Assembly: GCF_004016515.1 (NCBI RefSeq) | Contig: NZ_SACT01000004.1 | Span: 248,001-312,000, forward strand | DNA from: Rubrivivax albus | GTDB taxonomy: Bacteria > Pseudomonadota > Gammaproteobacteria > Burkholderiales > Burkholderiaceae_C | Direction of reading: 5' to 3' | Length of the DNA stretch: 64,000 nucleotides | Shown: piece after piece, positions 25,654 to 36,608 of the stretch | Layout of the letters: each line of letters opens with the position of its first letter | How positions within the stretch are numbered: position 1 is the stretch's first letter | The notes under the pieces: model-generated | What the model was told of the DNA's origin: nothing | Database searches by the model: none | What the model saw: the letters and a program-made list of their open reading frames with translations, nothing else | Translations under genes and position numbers: made by a program

Positions 25654-26541
25654 ATGGACGCACCGTTGCACACGCCGCTGATGCAGTGGCTCGGCCCGTT
25701 CGCCGAGTTCGCCTTCATGCAGTACGCGCTGGCCGGGCTGCTGGCGCTGTCACTCAGCGCACCACCGGTGGGTGTGTTCCTGATGCTGCGCCGCATGAGC
25801 CTGACCGGCGACGCGATGGCGCACGCCATCCTGCCCGGCGCTGCGCTGGGCTACCTGGTGGCCGGCCTGTCGCTGGGCGCGATGACGCTGGGTGGCCTCG
25901 CTGCCGGCCTGCTGGTGGTGGCCCTGTCGGGCGTGGTCACGCGCACCACGGTGCTGCGCGAGGATACGGCGCTGGCGGCGTTCTACCTGCTGTCGCTGGC
26001 GGTGGGGGTGGTCATCATCTCGTCGCAGGGCCGCAGCGTGGACCTGCTGCACGTGCTCTTCGGCAGCGTGCTGGCGCTCGACGGCACTGCGGTGCAGTTC
26101 CTCTGGGGTGTCGCGGCCGTCACCGTGGCCGTGCTGCTGCTGCTCTACCGGCCGCTGGTGCTGGAGTGCCTGGACCCCGGCTTCCTGCGTTCGGTCAGCC
26201 GCCTCAGCCCGGTGGCCCACCACGGCTTCCTGGCCCTGATGGTGCTCAACCTCGTGGCCGGCTTCCAGGCCCTGGGCACCTTGCTGGCCGTGGGTCTGAT
26301 GATCCTGCCGGCGGCGGCGGCCCGCTTCTGGGTGCGCGAACTGCGGCAGATGCTGGCGCTGTCCAGCGCCTTCGGCGCCCTCGGCAGCGTGGCCGGCCTG
26401 TGGCTGTCGTGGCGGCTGGACCTGCCCACCGGCCCGACCATCGTGCTCGCGCTGGGGGCGTTGCTGGGGGCGTCGCTGCTGGCCGCGCCGCGCGGCGTGC
26501 TGCGCGAACGTCTGCTGCCGGTGCGCCACCTGCGCGCCTGA
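25654..26541 (+). CDS. znuB: zinc ABC transporter permease
   Basis: A 295-residue ABC-3 family permease with about eight membrane segments (YALAGLLALSLSAPPVGVFLML, MSLTGDAMAHAILPGAALGY, LVALMV-type segments later). The SLTGDAMAHAILPGAALGY stretch is the family hallmark of metal-ion ABC-3 permeases. It lies between the ATPase and the binding protein genes with short gaps and forms the membrane channel of the zinc importer. Confidence 0.92.
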   Translation: MDAPLHTPLMQWLGPFAEFAFMQYALAGLLALSLSAPPVGVFLMLRRMSLTGDAMAHAILPGAALGYLVAGLSLGAMTLGGLAAGLLVVALSGVVTRTTVLREDTALAAFYLLSLAVGVVIISSQGRSVDLLHVLFGSVLALDGTAVQFLWGVAAVTVAVLLLLYRPLVLECLDPGFLRSVSRLSPVAHHGFLALMVLNLVAGFQALGTLLAVGLMILPAAAARFWVRELRQMLALSSAFGALGSVAGLWLSWRLDLPTGPTIVLALGALLGASLLAAPRGVLRERLLPVRHLRA

Positions 26542-26561
26542 ACCACGGCCCTGTCCGAACG

Positions 26562-27470
26562 ATGACCATACGCCTTCGTCTTCTTCTGCTGGCCCTCCTC
26601 CTGGGCCTGTGCGGTCCCTGGGCTCGTGCGGGCGACGCGCCGCTGCCCGTGGTCGCGAGCTTCAGCATCCTGGGCGACTTGGTGCAGCAGGTCGGCGGCG
26701 ACCGTGTGCAGGTCAGCCTGCTGGTCGGCCCCGACAGCGACGCGCACGCCGTGCAGCCCACGCCGTCGATGGCGCGGCGCGTGGCCGGTGCCGTCGTGCT
26801 GTTCTCCAACGGCCTGGGTTTCGAAGGCTGGATGGACCGGTTCCTGCGCGCCGCCGCCTTCCGTGGAAACCACGTGGTCGTGAGCGCGGGCCTGACACCG
26901 CGCGCCGCGGCCGGCGACCACGGCCACGGCCATGCCCACGACGTGGACCCGCACGCCTGGCAGGACGTGCGCCACGCCATCCACTACGTGGCCCGCATCG
27001 CCGACGGCCTGTGTGCCGCCGATGCCGCCCACTGCGCCGGTCACCGCGCACGCGCCGAGGCCGCCACGAAGCGCCTGCAGGCGCTGCACGCGCGCATCGT
27101 CGCCGCCTGGGCCGCGGTGCCGCTGGACCGGCGTGTGGTCATCACCACGCACGAGGCGTTCGGCTACTACGGCGCCGCCTACGGCGTGCGCTTCCTGTCG
27201 GCGCAGGGTATCTCGTCGGCCACCGAGCCCACGCCGCGCGCGGTGGCCGCACTGGTGCGCCAGGTCAAGACCAGCGGCACGAGAGCGCTGTTCCTCGAAC
27301 GCGCCGGCGACCCGCGCCTGATCGAGCGCATCGCACGCGAGACCGGTGCCGTCATCGGCGGCACCCTGTACGCCGATGCCCTGTCGGCCCCCGGCGGCCC
27401 GGCTGCCAGCTACGAGGCGATGATGGACCACAACACGCAGGCGCTGCTGCGCGCCGTGGAGGCCCGATGA
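26562..27470 (+). CDS. znuA: zinc ABC transporter substrate-binding protein
   Basis: A 302-residue exported protein with a signal peptide ending near PWARAGDA. The cluster A-I fold is marked by VVASFSILGDLVQQVGGDRV and GPDSDAHAVQPTPS (metal His). A short His-rich loop (GDHGHGHAHDVDPHAW) carries the second metal ligand, and HEAFGYYGAAYG follows. The His loop is typical of zinc-specific ZnuA as opposed to manganese SBPs, though it is short. The ATG at 26562 is the only start that gives a signal peptide. It overlaps the next gene by four bases. Confidence 0.9.
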   Translation: MTIRLRLLLLALLLGLCGPWARAGDAPLPVVASFSILGDLVQQVGGDRVQVSLLVGPDSDAHAVQPTPSMARRVAGAVVLFSNGLGFEGWMDRFLRAAAFRGNHVVVSAGLTPRAAAGDHGHGHAHDVDPHAWQDVRHAIHYVARIADGLCAADAAHCAGHRARAEAATKRLQALHARIVAAWAAVPLDRRVVITTHEAFGYYGAAYGVRFLSAQGISSATEPTPRAVAALVRQVKTSGTRALFLERAGDPRLIERIARETGAVIGGTLYADALSAPGGPAASYEAMMDHNTQALLRAVEAR

Positions 27471-28021
27471 ACATGACCAGTGGAACCTTGCGGGCCGGCG
27501 TGGTCGCGCTCATGACCGTGGCGACCGTGCCTGCGATGGCGCAGGGCCATGCCCACGTGCACGGGCAGGCCCAATTGGAGGTGGTGCTCGACGGTGCCGA
27601 ACTGCAGCTCACGCTGACGTCCCCTCTGGACAGCATCGTCGGGTTCGAGCACAAGCCCCGGACCGCGGCGCAGCGCCAGGCGGCCGAGCGTGCATTGCGC
27701 ACCCTGGTCGACCCGCCCCAGCTGTTCCTGGTGCCGGCGGCGGCCGGCTGCACGCTGCAGGACCAGGCCATCGAGGCGCCGGTGCTCCAGCCCGAAGCGG
27801 CCAACACCAAGCCGCACGACCACGCCGGCGAGCACGCCGACCTGGAGGCCACCTGGCGCTTCCGCTGCACGGCGCCGGACCGGCTGGACCGCCTGCCGCT
27901 GAAGCTCTTCGACCGCTTCGCGACGATGAAGCGGCTGGAGGTGCGTGTGGCCGGCCCGGCCGGGCAGGGGCGACAACTGCTGCGGCGCGGCGCCCCGGCC
28001 GAGGTGCAGTTCAGGCGCTGA
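27467..28021 (+). CDS. ZrgA family (DUF2796) zinc-uptake accessory protein
   Basis: A 184-residue exported protein: signal peptide to about AMAQGH, then HAHVHGQAQLEVVLDGAELQL, the opening of the DUF2796/ZrgA family. A His/Asp-rich patch follows (KPHDHAGEHADLEATW). In Vibrio the ZrgA protein assists the ZnuABC importer; the same role is likely here because the ATG overlaps the znuA stop (ATGA). It is the last gene of the zinc operon and ends just before the convergent cNMP-binding gene. Confidence 0.82.
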   Translation: MNMTSGTLRAGVVALMTVATVPAMAQGHAHVHGQAQLEVVLDGAELQLTLTSPLDSIVGFEHKPRTAAQRQAAERALRTLVDPPQLFLVPAAAGCTLQDQAIEAPVLQPEAANTKPHDHAGEHADLEATWRFRCTAPDRLDRLPLKLFDRFATMKRLEVRVAGPAGQGRQLLRRGAPAEVQFRR

Positions 28022-28059
28022 CGACGCTGAAGGCGCCGCCGGCCGGACCCAGGGTGCGG

Positions 28060-28647
28060 TCAGGCATAGCGCGACAGCCGCCGCGCGATCAGGAACGCGA
28101 AACGCTGATCCTGGTAGAACAGCTCCAGCAGCTTGGCCGCCGGCACCCACATCAGCTCGCAGTCGGTGTCGCACACGGCGGTGCCGGTGCGCTGCGCTGC
28201 CTCGCGGAACACGCCCACTTCGCCGAACAGTTCGCCCTCGGCGATCGTGCGGTCGAACTCCAGGATGCGCAGGCGGCCCGAGCGCAGCACATACACCTTG
28301 TCGGCCGGCTCGCCGAGGCGGAACAGCACCTCGCCGGCGGGCACGCGCAGCGGCTGCATGTAGGGCGTCAGGAAGTCGGCGTCGGGCCCGGCCTGCTGCA
28401 TCCCGCGCACGGCACGGATCGCGCGCCGCACCTCGTGCAGCCGCCACAGGTTCAGCGGCAGCAGGGCGCCGTGCAGCACCAGGATGGGCAGCACCTTGTC
28501 GAACACGCCCTGGCCCCAGCCCAGCAGCGCGTAGGCGATGAACGCCAGGTTGCTGGCGATGGCCATCGTGCGCAGCGGCACGATGGTCTTCATGAAGAAC
28601 GACGCGAACACCAGCGCCGCTGCCAGCCAGGCCACCCACACCATCAT
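28060..28647 (-). CDS. membrane protein with cyclic-nucleotide-binding domain
   Basis: A 195-residue protein with about three membrane segments in the first 70 residues (WVAWLAAALVFASFFM, IASNLAFIAYALLGWG, ILVLHGALLPLNLW) and a cytoplasmic cNMP-binding barrel at about 92-185. The barrel shows PAGEVLFRLGEPADKVYVLR, then EGELFGEVGVF in the phosphate-cassette position. The arrangement resembles Popeye-like or membrane CRP-type sensors that lack a DNA-binding domain. The cassette lacks the usual Arg for cNMP phosphate at the expected place as far as I can judge, so ligand binding is uncertain. It is downstream of nrdJ on the same strand (111-base gap). Confidence 0.8.
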   Translation of the reverse strand: MMVWVAWLAAALVFASFFMKTIVPLRTMAIASNLAFIAYALLGWGQGVFDKVLPILVLHGALLPLNLWRLHEVRRAIRAVRGMQQAGPDADFLTPYMQPLRVPAGEVLFRLGEPADKVYVLRSGRLRILEFDRTIAEGELFGEVGVFREAAQRTGTAVCDTDCELMWVPAAKLLELFYQDQRFAFLIARRLSRYA

Positions 28648-28758
28648 GCGCCGTACTCCCTGTCCGGTCCCGGTCGAGGAGTATGGCCGAGCGTTCGCGG
28701 TGCCGGCATCCGGCCATGCGAGTGCCGCGCCCGTGTCAGTGCGCCGAAGCCTGCAGCG

Positions 28759-31700
28759 TCAGCCGCAATGCCCCACGTAGCCGCAGGCGGTGCAGAAGTC
28801 GCAGCCGTCCTTGTGGATCATGGTGGCATTGCCGCATTCGGGGCAGGGCTTGCCGGCCTGCGGCACCACGGTGGCACCGGGCGTGGCTGCCGCGGCGGCG
28901 TCGGGCGTGGCCAGCACGCCCATCTCGCGCAGCGGGTAGCCGGCCTCGTCCAGCACGCCCAGCATCGCGTAGCGGTGGATGATCAGGCGCGCGAGGTAGG
29001 CCACGGTGCTGGGCCAGACCTGCTGGCGGCGCTCGCCATTGGGCAGCCCGGGCACGAAGGCCATGAAGTGGCCCAGCGGCTCGGCGTAGTTCAGCAGCTT
29101 GCGCAGCTTCATGCCGATCCAGGCCGGGTCGATCACGCGCATGTCCAGCGACAGCACGCGCGCCAGGCCGTCCAGCGCCCGCGGGTAGTTGCCCGCCAGG
29201 CCCATCGCGCAGGGGCGGGTGACGGTGCTGCCGTCGGGGGCCACCAGCGCCACCTCCTTGAGCGTGAGCGTGAAGCGCTCGCCGGTGGCCGGGTTGTCCA
29301 CGTCCACCGCCCAGGCCAGCGTGCCGGACGTGCCGGTGCGCGGTTCGTCGCGGCTGAACATGGCGTCGAGCACTGGCGTCGCGGCGCCTTCGACGAGGGC
29401 ACCGCGCTGTTCGCAGCGCCAGCGCAGCACCGCCGCGGTGGCGGCCACCACGCCGGGGAACAGGCGCTTGGTGCCGTCGGGCGGGAACGGCATCTCGAAG
29501 GCGCGCTCCTCGGCCACCGTGGCCAGCGCGTCGAGCTTGAGCCTGAGCCAGGCGGCGTCGTTGCTGCGCAGGTCCATGGACAGCGCCTTGGCCAGCGCGC
29601 CCAGGCCGCGCGGCTGCTCGGCGCCGTTGACCCAGACCTCGAACACGCGCGATCGACCCTCGGCATCGTCCGGCAGTTCGCCCACGAAGAGCGCGAAGTC
29701 GCCGAACGGGTGCTGGATCATGTAGCTCCAGGCCGGGTTGCCGGCCGGCAGCTCGGGGCGGCCCGGCCAGCGCAGGCTGGCCAGCACCGGGGCGGGCAGC
29801 TTGTCCAGCCGCAGCCGCTGGTCTGGGTGCTGGCCATCGGGCACCTGCAGCGCCGGCGTCGGCGCCGCCGGCGTCGTGCTCAGCACCGAGCCCAGCACGC
29901 TGTTGGGCCGGTAGGTGGCCAGGCCCTTGAGGCCCGACTTCCAGGCCTGCAGGTAGAGGTCGCGGAAGTCGGCATAGGGGTAGTCTGCCGGCACGTTGAC
30001 GGTCTTGCTGATCGACGTGTCCACCAGCGGTGCCACCGCGGCCACCATCGACGCGTGGGCCTGCGCGCTCATCTCCAGCGCGGTGACGAAGGCCTCGGTC
30101 AGCGGTGCCTCGTCGCCCTTCAGGTGGCGGTACAGCCGCCACGCGTGGTCTTCCACCGCGTAGGCCTTGGTGGTGCCGTCCGGCATGCGCTTCTTGCGCG
30201 TGTAGGTCCAGCTGAAGGCGGGCTCGATGCCGTTGCTGGCGTTGTCGGCAAAGGCCAGGCTGATGGTGCCGGTGGGTGCGATGGACAGCAGGTGCGAATT
30301 GCGGATCCCTTGGGTGCGGATCTTCTCCTTCAGCGCCGCCGGCAGGCGGCTGGCGAAGCGGCCGCCGCTGAGGTAGAGGTCGCGGTTGAACAGCGGGAAG
30401 GCGCCGCGTTCGGCGGCCAGGTCGCTGCTGGCAGCGTAGGCGGCGTCGCGCATCACGGTCGAGATGTGGCGCGCGGCGTCGCGCGCCGGATTGGTGTCGT
30501 AGCGCAGGCCCAGCATCACCAGCGCGTCACCCAGGCCGGTGAAGCCCAGGCCGACGCGGCGCTTGGACGCCGCCTCGGCCTGCTGTGCCGGCAGCGGCCA
30601 GACGGTCACGTCGAGCACGTTGTCCAGCATGCGCACGGCCACCGCGCAGACCTCGGCGAAGGCCGCCTCGTCTAAGCGCGCCGTGGCCTCGAACGGGTCG
30701 CGCACGAAGCGGGTGAGGTCGACGCTGCCCAGGCAGCAGCAGCCGTGGGGCGGCAGCGGTTGTTCTGCACAGTTGTGCACCAGCAGGCCGTTGGCGTCGA
30801 AGGCATGGACGTCAGCGACGGTCACGTCGTAGACCTCGGCCGCGCCGTCCGGCTCGACCGACAGCACGGTGGCCGTGAAGCGCTCGCGGTTGGGCGTGCG
30901 GCGGTAGGCCGACACGGCCTGCGCCAGGCGCGCTGCCTTGGCCTCGTCGGCAAAGCCGACGAGGTCGGCAAAGCGCGGCAGGTTCTCGCCAGCGATCACC
31001 AGCTCGCTGAGCTCGGCCTGCGGGTACAGGCGCTGGCCGCCGCGGCCATCGGGCAGGGCCTGCGGGCCGGCGGCGCGCCGGCCGCGGTAGACCTTGGCGG
31101 CGATGCCCAGGCGCAGCAGCAACCGCTGCACCGTCTGCAACAGCGCCGCGTCGGCCTGCGTCAGGCGCACGCTCACCCCCTTGGCCTGCGTGCCCTGCAC
31201 CGAGCCGTCGGCGTCGAACAGCCCTCGCAGCAGGCCACGGCAGAAATCGGAGCCAGCCGACTCCATGCGGGGCGTGATGGTCTTGTGGCCCGGCGCCATA
31301 CCCATCCCAAGAGCCAGGTCGCGCAACGGCGCCGAGGAGAGCCGGCACTCGCCACGCCCGGCCACCGGGCGCTGCCAGCCGCGGAAGTCCGCACGGTGCG
31401 GCAGCCGTGCGATGGCGTCGGACACGGCCCGCATCACGCCGCCCGCGCCAGACACGATGGCGTTCGTGTCGGCCCCTGCCGCGCGCAGCTCTGGTGCCCA
31501 GACCGACAGCACGGCCTTGCGTGCCCCCAGGTGACCGTCGCCGATCAGCAGGCCGAGCAGGTAGCCCTCGTCGGCACAGCCCACCCCGGGCCAGCCCAGC
31601 ATCGCTCGGTGGTCGTTCAGCACCACGGCATCGCCAGGCTGCAACGCGCCGGCGGCGCACCAGTCGGCGTGCTGCAGGTAGCGGGTCTGCTTCGTCACGC

Positions 31701-32793
31701 GACGCACCGGGTGGTCGTGGGTCAGCCGCAGTTCGTGACCCTCCCGGGTGCGCAGTCGCAGGACTGGCTTGTGGCCGGTGGCGAAGAAGCCGGCCGACTC
31801 GGTGGCGTGCGGGCGACCGTCGACCACGGCCTCGAAGGGCCGGCCGATCAGATCGGCCACCTGGCGCGGGCCATCGGCGGTCATCACCCAGGTGTCTGCA
31901 GTGACGCAGGGGTTGGTGGCGGCGATGGTCTCGCAGTACCCCAGGTTGTTGTCGGCGTTGATGCGGTCCAGGAACAGCACGCCGGGTTCGGCGTGGTCGT
32001 AGGTGGACCGCATGATCTGGTCCCACAGGTCGCGCGCCGGCACGCGGCGGTAGACCCACAGGCCGTCGTCGCGCTGGTGGGCACCGGCGGCCTTGAGCTT
32101 GGTGCCGGGCTCGGCCCGGTGCACCAGCTCGACCTCGGTGCCGTCCACCACCGCCTGCATGAAGGCATCGGTGACGCCGACCGAGACGTTGAAGTTCCTC
32201 AGATCGCCTTCGTCCTTGGCGTGGATGAAGGCCTCGATGTCCGGGTGGTCGCAGCGCAGCACACCCATCTGCGCGCCACGCCGCGCGCCGGCGGATTCCA
32301 CCGTCTCGCAGCTGCGGTCGAACACGCGCATGTAGCTCACGGGGCCGCTGGCGCTGCTGGCGGTGCTGGCCACCGCGGCGCCGGCCGGGCGGATGCGGCT
32401 GAAGTCGTAACCCACGCCGCCACCGCGGCGCATGGTCTCGGCGGCCTGGGCCAGCGCGGTGTAGATGCCGGGGAAACCGTCCTCGTCCTCGGTGATGCTG
32501 TCGCCCACCGGCTGCACGAAGCAGTTGATCAGCGTCGCGGCCAGGTCGGTGCCCGCGGCCGACGCGATGCGCCCGGCCGGCACGAAGCCGCGCTGCTGCG
32601 CGTCCAGGAATCGGGCCTCCCAGTGGGCGCGGTGCTCCGGGGCCTCGACCGCTGCGAGCGCACGCGCCACGCGGCGGCGCACGTCGTCGGCCTGGGCTTC
32701 GTCGCCCTTGGCGTATTTCTCCAGCAGCACCTCGGCGCTGATGGGCTGCGCCGGCAGCGTGCGCGAGGCGGATGGGGTGCGGGTGGTGGTCAT
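28759..32793 (-). CDS. nrdJ: adenosylcobalamin-dependent ribonucleoside-diphosphate reductase, intein-containing
   Basis: A class II ribonucleotide reductase precursor of 1344 residues. Removing the 379-residue intein (Cys296-Asn674) leaves a 965-residue enzyme, normal for the long NrdJ type. Extein features: [12 protein letters not shown], the [13 protein letters not shown] substrate region, the active-site [10 protein letters not shown] split by the intein, [11 protein letters not shown], and a C-terminal zinc-finger-like tail (CPECGN ... CDFCTACG). B12 radical chemistry makes dNTPs without needing oxygen. The ATG has AAGGAG six bases upstream and lies 10 bases after the nnrS stop, so the two genes are probably co-transcribed. 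No class I or III reductase is in the window. Confidence 0.95.
30772..31908 (-). mobile_element. LAGLIDADG intein in the NrdJ active site
   Basis: In-frame 379-codon insertion. Block A starts at Cys296 ([17 protein letters not shown]), and block B is RLTHDHPV with the TxxH motif (Thr358, His361). Two LAGLIDADG endonuclease motifs follow: LLGLLIGDG (residues about 412-420) and LRGLFDADG (about 522-530). Block F is [16 protein letters not shown], and block G is LLVHN followed by the +1 Cys675. All residues needed for standard class 1 splicing are present, and both endonuclease aspartates are kept, so splicing and homing both look intact. The insertion is between Pro295 and the catalytic cysteine of NPCAE. 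Base composition matches the host gene by eye. Confidence 0.93.
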
Positions 32794-32803
32794 GACGGCT
32801 CCT

Positions 32804-34093
32804 TCAGCCCGGCCGGCCGTCGACCCGGGGGCGGCCGTACCAAGCCAGGTGGCGCAGGCCCCAGGGCAGCAGCGCTGCAGCCCAGGTCACGGCCGCCCAG
32901 GTCAGCAGTGGCAGCTGGGCGATGTCGCTCATGATGCGCCCGATCACAGCGGCCTGCAGCACCCAGAAGAGCACCCATGCGCCGGTGTCGACCGCCAGCG
33001 CACGCCCGCTGTGGCCGGCGCTGACGCGGGTGACCATGGCCACCAGCGTGCTGCCCAGGAAACCCATGGTGTAGGCGTGCAGCGGCGCCAGGCCCAGCCC
33101 TGGCTGGCCGGCGGCCTGCAGGCCATGCGACACCGCCGCCAGCCCCATCGCCACGCCCAGCCACACGAAGCCCAGGTGCAGCATCGCCAGCAGGCGGTTC
33201 CGCAGGCTGTGCAGCAGGCCCCAGCGCAGCGCCAGCAGCGTCCAGCCCAGGCCGGCGGCGGCCTCGATGGCGGCCTGCAGCGCCAGCGGCACCGGCGCCC
33301 AGTGCACGAAGCCCTCGAAGCCGAGCACCATCACGAAGCTGGCGAGCAGCCACTGCGGCCGCCAGGCGTCCAGCGCCGGCACCGCGGCGGCGCTGAAGAA
33401 CGGGATCATCCGGTGCGCCACCGCGGCGTAGACCACGCCGGCGAAGGCCCACAGCGCCACGCGCACGGTCTCGTGCACGGTGGCCAGGTCGCCGGCGGCG
33501 ACGCTGCCGGCGGCCACGACCATCAGCACGGCGCCGAAGGCCCCTGCGACCGTGACGACAGAGGCGTGCAGCTTGTCCGTGGCCGCGCTGCGCAGCAGCA
33601 GGCGGGTGAAGTGCAGCACGGCGCGCCCCCAGCCGGCCGCCAGTGCCGCCAGGCCCAGGGCCGCCAGCAGCCGGGCCAGCGCCGGGTCGTGCGCAAAGCC
33701 GGCCAGGCCCAGCACCAGCGCGCCGGCGGCCTGCGCCTGCACCGGGCCGCGCAGGTGGCGCACCGCCGGTGGCGGCAGGCCCAGCCAGCGCGGGCCGGCG
33801 GTGAACAGGAAGCCGGTGAAGAACAGCGGCATGAAGCCGAAGCCCATCAGCAGGGCGTGCAGCGTGCCCGATGGCAGACCGGCCGGCACGGCCACCCCGG
33901 CCGCGCGCGCCAGCAGCGTGCCGGCCCACCACAGGGCCACCAGCAGCAGCACGGCGGTGCCGGCGGCAAAGGCCAGCCGGTGCGGGGCGGAGAGCAGCCG
34001 CCCCGGTCGCCAGGGCAGGGCAGTGCGTCGGGTGTGTGACAGGGCCGGCTGCGCGGCCGGCGCGTGGAGGTGCAGGGGCAGGGTTCGCGACAT
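32804..34093 (-). CDS. nnrS: NnrS family membrane protein
   Basis: A 429-residue inner-membrane protein with about 12 hydrophobic segments and the NnrS pattern: [41 protein letters not shown], and [29 protein letters not shown]. NnrS is a haem/copper protein that protects against nitrosative stress and is usually under NnrR/Dnr control. The ATG at 34091-34093 is chosen because the upstream extension is unlike protein. A TTGCG-N4-CGCAA palindrome lies 37 bases upstream. It is directly upstream of nrdJ. Confidence 0.9.
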
Positions 34094-34129
34094 GGGCCGC
34101 GATGCTCGGGCCAGGGCGCCGGTGAGGCT

Positions 34130-34143
34130 TTGCGTCAGCGCAA
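34130..34143 (-). promoter_or_regulatory. candidate Crp/Fnr-family operator upstream of nnrS
   Basis: TTGCG-TCAG-CGCAA is a 5-4-5 palindrome with the TTG...CAA ends of Fnr/Dnr boxes. It lies 37 bases upstream of the nnrS ATG, the same distance as the FNR palindrome before the dnr-like gene. The inner CG bases differ from both the TTGAT and TTGAA classes, so the binding protein is uncertain. Confidence 0.4.
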
Positions 34144-34193
34144 CCCGGCCGGTCAAAGCCGGCATGGTGGCGTGCGGATGTGGCTTGGCCGCC

Positions 34194-34598
34194 TCAACCC
34201 GCCGTGGCCAGCAGCCCGGCCGGGTGGTGGGCCACCGCCACCGACACCATGAAGCCCAGGCAGCCCAGCGCGGCCAGCGTCCAGCCGGCGCACGCGGCCG
34301 GCGTGCGCGCCCGGCGCAGCGCCATCGTGCCCAGCCCCACATAGGCCACCAGCAGCACCAGCTTCACGCCCAGCCAGGTCTGCACCAGCGGGTTGACCTG
34401 CAGGGCGGCCCACAGCAGGGCACCGGCGGTGAGCAGGCCGGTGTCGATCACCCAGCTGGCCACACGCGCCGGCAGCGACAGCGGCCAGTGCGCCCCCGCC
34501 AGCCGGCCCGAGGCCCGGAGCAGGAACCAGCCGCCACTGAGCGCCACCAGGCCGATGTGGGCCTGGCGCAGGGTGGCGTAGTGGTCGATCAATGACAT
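34194..34598 (-). CDS. SirB2 family membrane protein
   Basis: A 134-residue protein with four predicted membrane helices: [49 protein letters not shown] and [20 protein letters not shown]. The opening [18 protein letters not shown] is the SirB2 pattern. Function is unknown; the family was named for proximity to sirB1 and often accompanies respiratory or redox genes. The ATG at 34596-34598 is chosen; the long upstream extension is not protein-like. It precedes nnrS by 100 bases on the same strand and is divergent from fabA. Confidence 0.85.
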
Positions 34599-34809
34599 GG
34601 GACAGGTGTCGCAGCGCCCGATTGTGCGCGGCGACACCCCGGGGAGCCCGCGATGCCGGCCACGGCATGGCGGCAGATCTGCGGGCCGTTGCGCTGGCTC
34701 AAGCGGCCCCGTCAGCGCCGGCCCAGGCAGCGCAGGCAGAATGTCGGGCCACGCGCCGGTGGAACCCAGGGGCCACCGGCTGGATTGCAGACCCCAACCG
34801 CGACCGCCC

Positions 34810-35358
34810 ATGACGTCCACCACCCCGCGCCCGAGCCAGCGAGAACTGGGTCGCCACTCCTATGGCCGCGACGACCTGCTGGCCTGCGGCCATGGCGAAC
34901 TGTTCGGGCCTGGCAACGCCCGCCTGCCGCTGCCGAACATGCTGATGTTCGACCGCATCGTGCAGATCGACGACACCGGCGGCGCGCACGGCAAAGGACA
35001 GATCGTGGCCGAGCTCGACATCCGGCCCGACCTCTGGTTCTTCGACTGCCACTTCGAGACCGACCCGGTGATGCCCGGCTGCCTGGGCCTGGATGCGCTG
35101 TGGCAGCTGGTGGGCTTCTGGCTGGGCTGGCGCGGCAACCCGGGCCGCGGCCGCGCGCTGGGTGCCGGCGAGATCAAGTTCTTCGGCCAGGTGCTGCCCA
35201 GCGTGTCCAAGGTCACCTACCGGCTGGACCTCAAGCGCGTCATCGAGCGCAAGCTGGTGATGGGCATCGCCGACGGCAGCGTGCTGGCCGACGACCGCGA
35301 GATCTACCAGGCCACCGACCTCAAGGTGGGCCTGTTCACGTCCACCGAGGCCTTCTGA
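34810..35358 (+). CDS. fabA: 3-hydroxydecanoyl-[ACP] dehydratase/isomerase
   Basis: Introduces the cis double bond at the C10 stage of unsaturated fatty acid synthesis. The 182-residue hot-dog protein carries the active-site His in [20 protein letters not shown] and the helix [10 protein letters not shown]. The ATG at 34810 gives the usual length. It overlaps fabB by one base (TGATG), so both are made together, matching the fabA-fabB pairing of proteobacteria. No FabR-type box was recognised upstream. Confidence 0.96.
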
Positions 35359-36608
35359 TGCGCCGCGTCGTCATCACCGGCCAGGGCATCGTCTCGAGCC
35401 TGGGCAACACCGTCGACGACGTGGCCGCCAGCCTGCGCGAGGGCCGCTCTGGCATCCGTGCCAACCCCGTCTACGCCGAGCGCGGCCTGCGCTGCCAGGT
35501 CAGCGGCCGCCCGGCGCTGGAGCTCGAGGCGGCCATCGACCGCCGCACGCTGCGCTTCATGGGCGACGCCGCGGCCTACGCCTACCTGTCGATGCAGCAG
35601 GCGATCGCGCAGTCGGGCCTGACCGAGGCGCAGATCTCGCACCCGCGCACCGGCCTGGTGGCCGGCAGCGGCGGTGCGTCCAGCTTCAACCAGGTCTGGG
35701 CTGCGGACACGCTGCGCGCCAAGGGCATCAAGCGCGTGGGCCCGTTCATGGTCACGCGCACCATGGGCAGCACCGTGTCGGCCTGCCTGGCCACCAGCTT
35801 CGGCATCAAGGGCGTCAACTACTCGATCAGCTCCGCCTGCGCCACCAGCGCGCACTGCATCGGCCACGCCGCGCAGCTGATCGCCTGGGGCCAGCAGGAC
35901 GTGGTCTTCGCCGGTGGCGGCGAGGAGGAGAGCTGGGAGCTGTCGCTGCTGTTCGACGCCATGGGCGCAATGTCCAGCGGCTACAACGACCGACCGGAGC
36001 AGGCCTCGCGTGCCTTCGACAGCGCGCGCGACGGCTTCGTCATCGCCGGTGGCGGCGGCATGCTGGTGCTCGAGGCGCTTGAGCATGCGCAGGCGCGTGG
36101 CGCCACCATCCTGGCCGAGCTGGTGGGCTTCGGCGCCACGTCCGACGGCCACGACATGGTGGCCCCCTCCGGCGAAGGTGCGGTGCGCTGCATGCAGCAG
36201 GCGCTGGCCACGGTGCAGCGGCCGGTGGACTACATCAATGCCCACGGCACGTCCACGCCGGTGGGCGACGCGGCCGAACTCGGCGCGGTGCGCGAGGTCT
36301 TCGGCGCCGCGCTCGCGGGCGAGGCCACCGTGCCGGCGTTGTCCAAGGTGCCGGCCATCAGTTCCACCAAGTCCCTCTCCGGCCATTCGCTGGGGGCGGC
36401 TGGTGCGCAGGAGGCGATCTACGCGCTGCTGATGCTGCAGCAGGGCTTCGCCGCCGCCTCGGCCAACATCGACACGCCCGACCCGGCCGCCGAGGGCCTG
36501 CCCCTGCTGCGCGAACGGCTGGACGCGCCGCTGACCACGGTGATGTCCAACAGCTTCGGCTTCGGCGGCACCAACGCGTCGCTGGTGTTCACGCGCTTCG
36601 ACGATTGA
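35358..36608 (+). CDS. fabB: beta-ketoacyl-ACP synthase I
   Basis: A 416-residue condensing enzyme that elongates the unsaturated intermediate made by FabA. The catalytic triad is visible: Cys in [15 protein letters not shown], His in [15 protein letters not shown], and His in [25 protein letters not shown] near the C-terminus completes the thiolase fold. The FabB (rather than FabF) assignment rests on the operon with fabA and on the [16 protein letters not shown] opening. Confidence 0.96.

Follow-up and report, generated by a model that had tools for sequence, protein, structure and literature searches.

A predicted class 1 LAGLIDADG homing intein abuts the radical cysteine of class II ribonucleotide reductase in Rubrivivax albus

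What is an insert of 379 residues doing directly before the catalytic cysteine of a ribonucleotide reductase (RNR)? The question is raised by a 64,000-nucleotide stretch of the Rubrivivax albus genome (assembly GCF_004016515.1, contig NZ_SACT01000004.1, positions 248,001 to 312,000; hereafter, the window), in which nrdJ, the gene for the adenosylcobalamin-dependent class II enzyme, is interrupted in frame. We conclude that the insert is very probably a self-splicing class 1 LAGLIDADG homing intein situated between the proline and the radical cysteine of NrdJ. The anatomy of the insert, its conserved residues and predicted fold, the occurrence of both empty and full alleles, their scattered distribution, and the purifying selection on the endonuclease of related alleles support this reading directly; that the insert splices, that it cleaves DNA, and why it occupies this site are the parts that we infer from them.

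The nrdJ frame encodes 1344 amino acids (aa) with the intein and 965 aa without it (coordinates, which include the stop codon, are given in Table 1). The reverse complement of the insert is a stop-free run of 379 residues (CVTADTW...LLVHN) in frame with nrdJ; translation of the plus strand over the same positions does not give it. The insert splits NP from CAE, with ATNP on its N-terminal flank and CAEQPLPP on its C-terminal flank, and joining the exteins restores the NPC.E motif of NrdJ. In the alignment with the NrdJ of Thermotoga maritima (Protein Data Bank codes 1xje and 1xjk), the N-terminal side runs to Asn320-Pro321-Cys322 and the C-terminal side restarts at Pro321-Cys322, so that the +1 cysteine corresponds to Cys322. 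Cys322 is the radical cysteine, equivalent to Cys439 in the NLC motif of the Escherichia coli class I enzyme. The whole frame scores 558.5 bits against the NCBIfam profile NrdJ_Z (cutoff, 399.95), and Pfam places the ribonucleotide reductase barrel domain at protein residues 90 to 961. The original prediction, which gave no strand, had proposed a complete 379-residue intein directly before the radical cysteine and a spliced product of 965 residues; translation, profiles, the 1xje alignment, and residue conservation bear out the former, simple subtraction (1344 minus 379) bears out the length of the latter, and the feature lies on the minus strand.

All the class 1 splice residues (Cys1, T63-H66, His378, Asn379, and the +1 Cys) can be read from the sequence, as can both LAGLIDADG aspartates, just as had been proposed. 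When the window intein was aligned with 80 relatives (see below), Cys1, T63, H66, D124, D232, and N379 were present in 81/81 sequences and D234 and H378 in 80/81. Pfam searches with the insert alone recovered LAGLIDADG_3 (E = 1.2e-22) and Intein_splicing (39.3 bits; cutoff, 35.8), the latter slipping slightly below the cutoff, to 34.9, when scored in the whole frame; the NCBIfam models for the two ends gave 33.4 (intein_Nterm; cutoff, 24.5) and 24.9 (intein_Cterm; cutoff, 15.6). The predicted structure (mean predicted local distance difference test [pLDDT] score, 93.5; modeled from 52 sequences) combines a HINT fold with a LAGLIDADG endonuclease. In Foldseek searches with this model, the TliVMA intein was the top match and PI-PfuI came fifth, and in VIA-align PI-PfuI (Z = 27.6; root-mean-square deviation, 4.5; 324 residues) and TliVMA (Z = 26.8 and 26.6) tied at the top, followed by PI-SceI (Z = 22.8 to 24.4), DnaB mini-inteins (about 20), and inteins with a splicing domain only (about 16 to 20). 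PI-PfuI is itself an RNR intein, that of Pyrococcus furiosus. In sequence and fold the insert agrees with class 1 inteins, from which splicing activity is predicted, and its two LAGLIDADG motifs, together with the existence of empty and full alleles, agree with a homing element that would cut the empty site.

The best explanation of these features is as follows. After translation, the HINT domain would act on the Pro(-1)-Cys1 bond by an acyl shift, the acyl group would move to the +1 Cys, Asn379 would cyclize, and the exteins would join to restore NPCAE; the freed cysteine would now be available for B12-assisted conversion to the thiyl radical. In the genome, intein-less nrdJ alleles would be cut by the endonuclease in the neighborhood of the NPC[A/G]E codons, and the intein would be copied in during repair. 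The radical-cysteine codons may have been favored as a highly conserved target at which deletions are punished.

We then asked how widely this arrangement is distributed. A pattern scan of genome contigs recovered 488 related stretches, which are not necessarily 488 loci; we fetched the 80 best, each of them a separate locus. The junction NP↓C...N↓C[A/G]E[Q/E]P (arrows mark the splice junctions) was found in frame in 80/80 of these, with 79 inteins ending in HN and one in SN; the loci were parsed twice, a looser pattern giving one odd N-terminal flank and the stricter parse giving NP in every case. By title, 75/80 belong to beta-proteobacteria or their genera (Acidovorax, Delftia, Polaromonas, Hydrogenophaga, Gallionella, and others) and the remaining five to Proteobacteria (three), Gammaproteobacteria (one), and Chitinophaga (one). 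Across 81 genomes of the window's genus, 35/43 long-form NrdJ genes are empty and 8/43 are full, namely, six with an intein of the window's type (class A) and two with a distinct one (class B). This count rests on matches of at least 74% identity covering a 307-aa C-extein query (43 genes in 39 genomes, counted by hand) and leaves aside three partial matches, two of them in one genome, and a shorter NrdJ subtype (50 to 69% identity). The 379 residues are thus absent from most of the long-form genes read in the genus rather than being a conserved part of NrdJ. At the family level (399 genomes), about 131 long-form NrdJ genes were counted by hand among the matches listed. The 46 regions fetched from these genomes comprised 28 full alleles (22 class A and 6 class B), 17 empty ones, and one that was not parsed; they combine sets of 39 (without one same-genus region) and 7 (without one of 834 bases) and were picked mostly for long open frames, so that the class A and B counts are not frequencies. 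The shorter open frames of the unread alleles and an empty-site pattern in 209/399 genomes suggest, without proving, that those alleles are empty; if every one of them is, the figures suggest that 29 of the about 131 listed genes, including the window's, are full. Searches of the window's genome with PF14890 and with the intein protein as the query found no second intein.

Two intein lineages occupy this one codon. In a midpoint-rooted tree of 43 inteins (one row is long, and 15, the window's among them, were flagged for unusual letter composition), the beta-proteobacterial class A inteins form one group (100/100) that shares a branch with inteins from viral contigs (98/97), and the class B inteins group with those of class Ib RNRs (98/98). 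The two genus members with class B inteins (L117 and L122) end in NGLVTGQ↓C, with a terminal Gln and without the penultimate His. Their exteins are 93 to 94% identical to those of a class A carrier of the same genus (L124), which has a different intein at the same codon. A C-terminal Gln and the lack of a penultimate His are documented in other inteins, and the Chilo iridescent virus RNR intein splices with its native Gln, according to the accessible text of PMC4031507. With one class B sequence as the query, no class B relatives were found in viral contigs; a search of named phages returned 195 records, the best match being of the SPbeta type. Both lineages also include shortened inteins at the NP↓C site, of 277 aa (L139), 278 aa (L153), and 318 aa (L150) in class A and of 276 aa (L149) and 252 aa (L163) in class B. 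The inteins of L139 and L153 end in KN, not HN. By their length, the shortened forms look like products of partial endonuclease loss and of the decay phase of a homing cycle.

Several observations bear on mobility. On the extein tree of the 43 genus genes, at least six changes of the full or empty label are needed to account for the eight genes that are full. The closest two relatives of the window's nrdJ (L105 and L106) are both empty, with continuous flanks that are identical to the window at 106 and 103 of 120 nucleotides. Among 28 class A alleles, intein identity and extein identity are weakly correlated (Spearman coefficient of 0.23 over 378 nonindependent pairs). Synonymous divergence (dS) is higher in the intein than in the exteins in 8/8 close pairs (e.g., 0.60 to 0.65 versus 0.16 for L117 and L122), as expected if inteins move between hosts. 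The ratio of nonsynonymous to synonymous divergence (dN/dS) in the endonuclease region lies between 0.07 and 0.28 for the seven pairs of full-size inteins and reaches 0.57 for the only shortened pair, L139 and L153 (three of the eight pairs share alleles, and domain borders were set by residue number). The exteins and HINT regions of related alleles are under purifying selection as well. Together, the dS and dN/dS values fit a homing element that probably moves between hosts and stays active.

The same data bear on the possibility that the intein no longer splices and leaves nrdJ effectively inactive. The genome does encode a class I enzyme that could do the work (nrdA, with an NLCTEI motif, and nrdB close downstream), so splicing need not be essential for the supply of deoxyribonucleotides. 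We nevertheless regard this explanation as highly improbable, as the splice residues match those of the 80 aligned relatives, the reading frame is unbroken and its score exceeds the NrdJ cutoff, and both the exteins and the HINT regions of related alleles are constrained. Slightly better, and still very unlikely, is a domesticated regulator whose conditional splicing, in response, for example, to oxygen or redox state, sets when the oxygen-independent NrdJ becomes active. Such a role would suit an intein in which both splice nucleophiles are cysteines, an enzyme known to be useful at low oxygen, an adjoining same-strand nnrS gene (PF05940), and a host whose class I enzyme makes delayed maturation of NrdJ tolerable. 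It fits less well with the lack of the intein in 35/43 genus genes, including the closest relatives, and with the use of the same codon by two separate lineages; the intact endonuclease motifs and the purifying selection in related alleles fit a selfish element. Both alternatives find little support.

Certain points weigh against a self-splicing, homing intein. Splicing and cutting are predicted from the sequence and the modeled fold. A Pro at position -1 slows the first splicing step in several inteins, and with this residue splicing of the window intein may be slow. Splicing has reportedly been shown for the RIR1 intein of Methanothermobacter, in which Pro likewise occupies -1 and Cys +1. 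The dN/dS pairs are drawn from alleles other than that of the window, several of the dS values approach saturation, and some of the dS difference could be due to codon bias in the exteins. A co-conversion tract as a homing footprint was also considered and is not demonstrated: across 36 full and 52 empty alleles, the fraction of A/T-ending codons among the first five C-extein codons is 0.25 versus 0.18 (p = 0.19). For single N-side codons, the raw frequencies of A/T endings in full versus empty alleles are 0.50 versus 0.21 at position -2 and 0.22 versus 0.02 at position -6. The idea of a footprint came from the window itself, where about 6% of the extein codons of nrdJ have A or T in the third position and the C-extein opens with four of them (TGT GCA GAA CAA, 30760 to 30771), the gene's only run of at least three such codons.

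Equivalent insertions occur in other reductases. The junction reads SNL↓C...GN↓CSE in SPbeta bnrdE and in Miltoncostaea (both class Ib), SNL↓C...GN↓CTE in a Staphylococcus phage reductase, and TNL↓C...GN↓CVE in T5-like phages of Proteus and Salmonella (annotated as class Ia or as the large subunit). The arrangement had been presented as though it were a rarity, an implication contradicted by these class Ia and Ib phage enzymes and by the shared junction of all 80 fetched relatives. Viral contigs yielded 33 further relatives, some of them near-copies: 26 have NP↓C...N↓C, one has NV↓C...N↓C, one is cut at the N-terminal end, and two have flanks unlike those of RNR. In the other three, the insertion lies one codon later (NPC↓C...HN↓SE), with the radical cysteine at -1 and Ser at +1. 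Judging from these 3/33 sequences, use of the radical cysteine as the +1 nucleophile is not obligatory. Two such NPC↓S copies nest with four NP↓C copies in the intein tree (98/93). On balance, we lean slightly toward viewing the radical-cysteine codon as a position that homing inteins have repeatedly invaded in RNRs of classes Ia, Ib, and II, with two lineages in the NrdJ of beta-proteobacteria, one of them grouping with class Ib inteins, and a slide of exactly one codon in one viral lineage; in the accessible portions of the open-access PMC literature, we found no statement of this slide or of two lineages at the NrdJ codon.

Separate from this site are the inteins of two genus members in class I NrdA, which were ruled out as radical-cysteine-site inteins, as the NLC motif is uninterrupted downstream of them and they occupy another NrdA site. 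In the reductase frame of Salmonella phage SP3, the radical-cysteine insert is preceded by a second intein-like insert (NTQQ↓CYSADTEV...VCGN↓SRGG).

These comparisons temper the strong consequences drawn in the original prediction. That splicing and catalysis use one side chain follows directly from the identity of the +1 Cys with the radical cysteine, and it is reasonable to suppose that no active NrdJ would form before splicing. Given the class I reductase, the common empty state (35/43), and a site that is not fixed in viral relatives, both this and the idea that the intein cannot be lost imprecisely, which is itself an extrapolation, are best put less strongly.

Table 1. Features of the interrupted nrdJ gene, in window positions
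Feature	Positions	Strand	Basis
nrdJ, adenosylcobalamin-dependent class II ribonucleotide reductase precursor	28759..32793	minus	open frame, NrdJ_Z profile, alignment with 1xje
N-extein, 295 aa, C-terminal end ATNP	31909..32793	minus	alignment with 1xje, reaching Asn320-Pro321
Intein, 379 aa, Cys1 to Asn379	30772..31908	minus	translation, Pfam and NCBIfam profiles, model pLDDT 93.5, PI-PfuI Z 27.6
HINT splicing domain, N-terminal half, about residues 1-105	31594..31908	minus	intein_Nterm residues 1-69, model secondary structure; boundary approximate
Block B TxxH = THDH, residues 63-66	31711..31722	minus	T63 and H66 in 81/81 aligned inteins
LAGLIDADG homing endonuclease domain, about residues 107-340	30889..31590	minus	LAGLIDADG_3 residues 222-318; I-Tsp061I aligned to model 107-340, Z 17.0
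LAGLIDADG motif 1 LLGLLIGDG, residues 117-125, Asp124	31534..31560	minus	D124 in 81/81
LAGLIDADG motif 2 LRGLFDADG, residues 227-235, Asp234	31204..31230	minus	D234 in 80/81
HINT domain, C-terminal part, about residues 341-379, terminal His378-Asn379	30772..30888	minus	intein_Cterm residues 358-379; H378 80/81, N379 81/81
+1 C-extein cysteine codon TGT	30769..30771	minus	aligned with T. maritima Cys322
C-extein, 670 aa, first residues CAEQPLPP	28762..30771	minus	translation, alignment with 1xje

In the gene neighborhood (25686 to 36605), Pfam matches on one side of nrdJ are to the zinc uptake proteins ZnuA and ZrgA and to a cyclic-nucleotide-binding domain in a further protein; those on the other side are to NnrS, SirB, a FabA-like protein, and a ketoacyl synthase. 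No RNA families were found in the window at Rfam gathering thresholds, and no tRNA was found in it. Five loci in members of the genus hold inteins of another kind (EGWA↓C...HN↓CFW); these were ruled out as NrdJ-site inteins because they are inserted in another protein, which we take to be SpoVR-like.

Among known systems, the insertion directly before the cysteine that aligns with Cys322 of 1xje places the window intein in the radical-cysteine-site group, presumably RIR1-i or RIR1-l of InBase. Both of these alleles are named in PMC1635734, which also describes allelic RNR inteins common to prophages of Bacillus subtilis, viruses of eukaryotes, and a cyanobacterium. Published work already covers NrdJ inteins of beta- and gamma-proteobacteria: in Azotobacter chroococcum, according to PMC4465626, both nrdA and nrdJa contain a LAGLIDADG-3 intein, which in nrdJa spans residues 321 to 690. 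The window's copy, likewise a LAGLIDADG-3 intein in NrdJ, is another allele. A preference of inteins for conserved or catalytic sites is described in the accessible parts of PMC5874633 and PMC2814812. As far as the available texts go, RNRdb holds about 80 curated inteins (PMC2795772), inteins are uncommon among viral RNRs in one set (8 among 18,717; PMC12918982), and NrdJ insertion-site data are absent from the portions of PMC3653736, PMC8772380, PMC6370689, PMC7090010, PMC3326045, and PMC12918982 that could be consulted.

Profile matches extend the comparison. The intein alone matches NF006207 (residues 224 to 379 to profile positions 1098 to 1241), and in the whole protein one continuous match (519 to 866 to profile positions 1098 to 1440) runs from the intein end across the junction into the C-extein. 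This model (PRK08332; B12-dependent RNR; 1684 positions) represents a Pyrococcus-type protein with inteins. The match, at only 301.6 bits against a cutoff of 2400, suggests that members of that family may carry an intein at the NP↓C junction, a suggestion drawn from the profile rather than from an archaeal sequence.

The SPbeta bnrdE inteins and their kin, presumably at the site of the InBase allele RIR1-i, resemble the window intein in lying directly before the equivalent cysteine and in matching it over the full length (tblastn E = 5e-17); they differ in their class I host, the lack of a penultimate His, an identity of 24%, and a separate branch in the tree. The split intein NrdJ-1, as described in the accessible text of PMC13123727, has native exteins NPC and SEI and an obligate Ser at +1. 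It shares the NPC motif with the window's junction, and its structure (8ubs, the splicing part only) matches the splicing domain with a Z score of 18.8; it differs in being split and in its insertion point, which is shifted by one codon to put Cys at -1 and Ser at +1 and is the position of the viral NPC↓S inteins. Set beside these systems, the window intein is one more copy of a large known group. The comparison reveals, from sequences, that RNRs of three classes have inteins in front of the radical cysteine, points out natural inteins with Pro at -1 and a lineage with a terminal Gln and no penultimate His, and offers close pairs of full and empty alleles as material for tests of homing and fitness.

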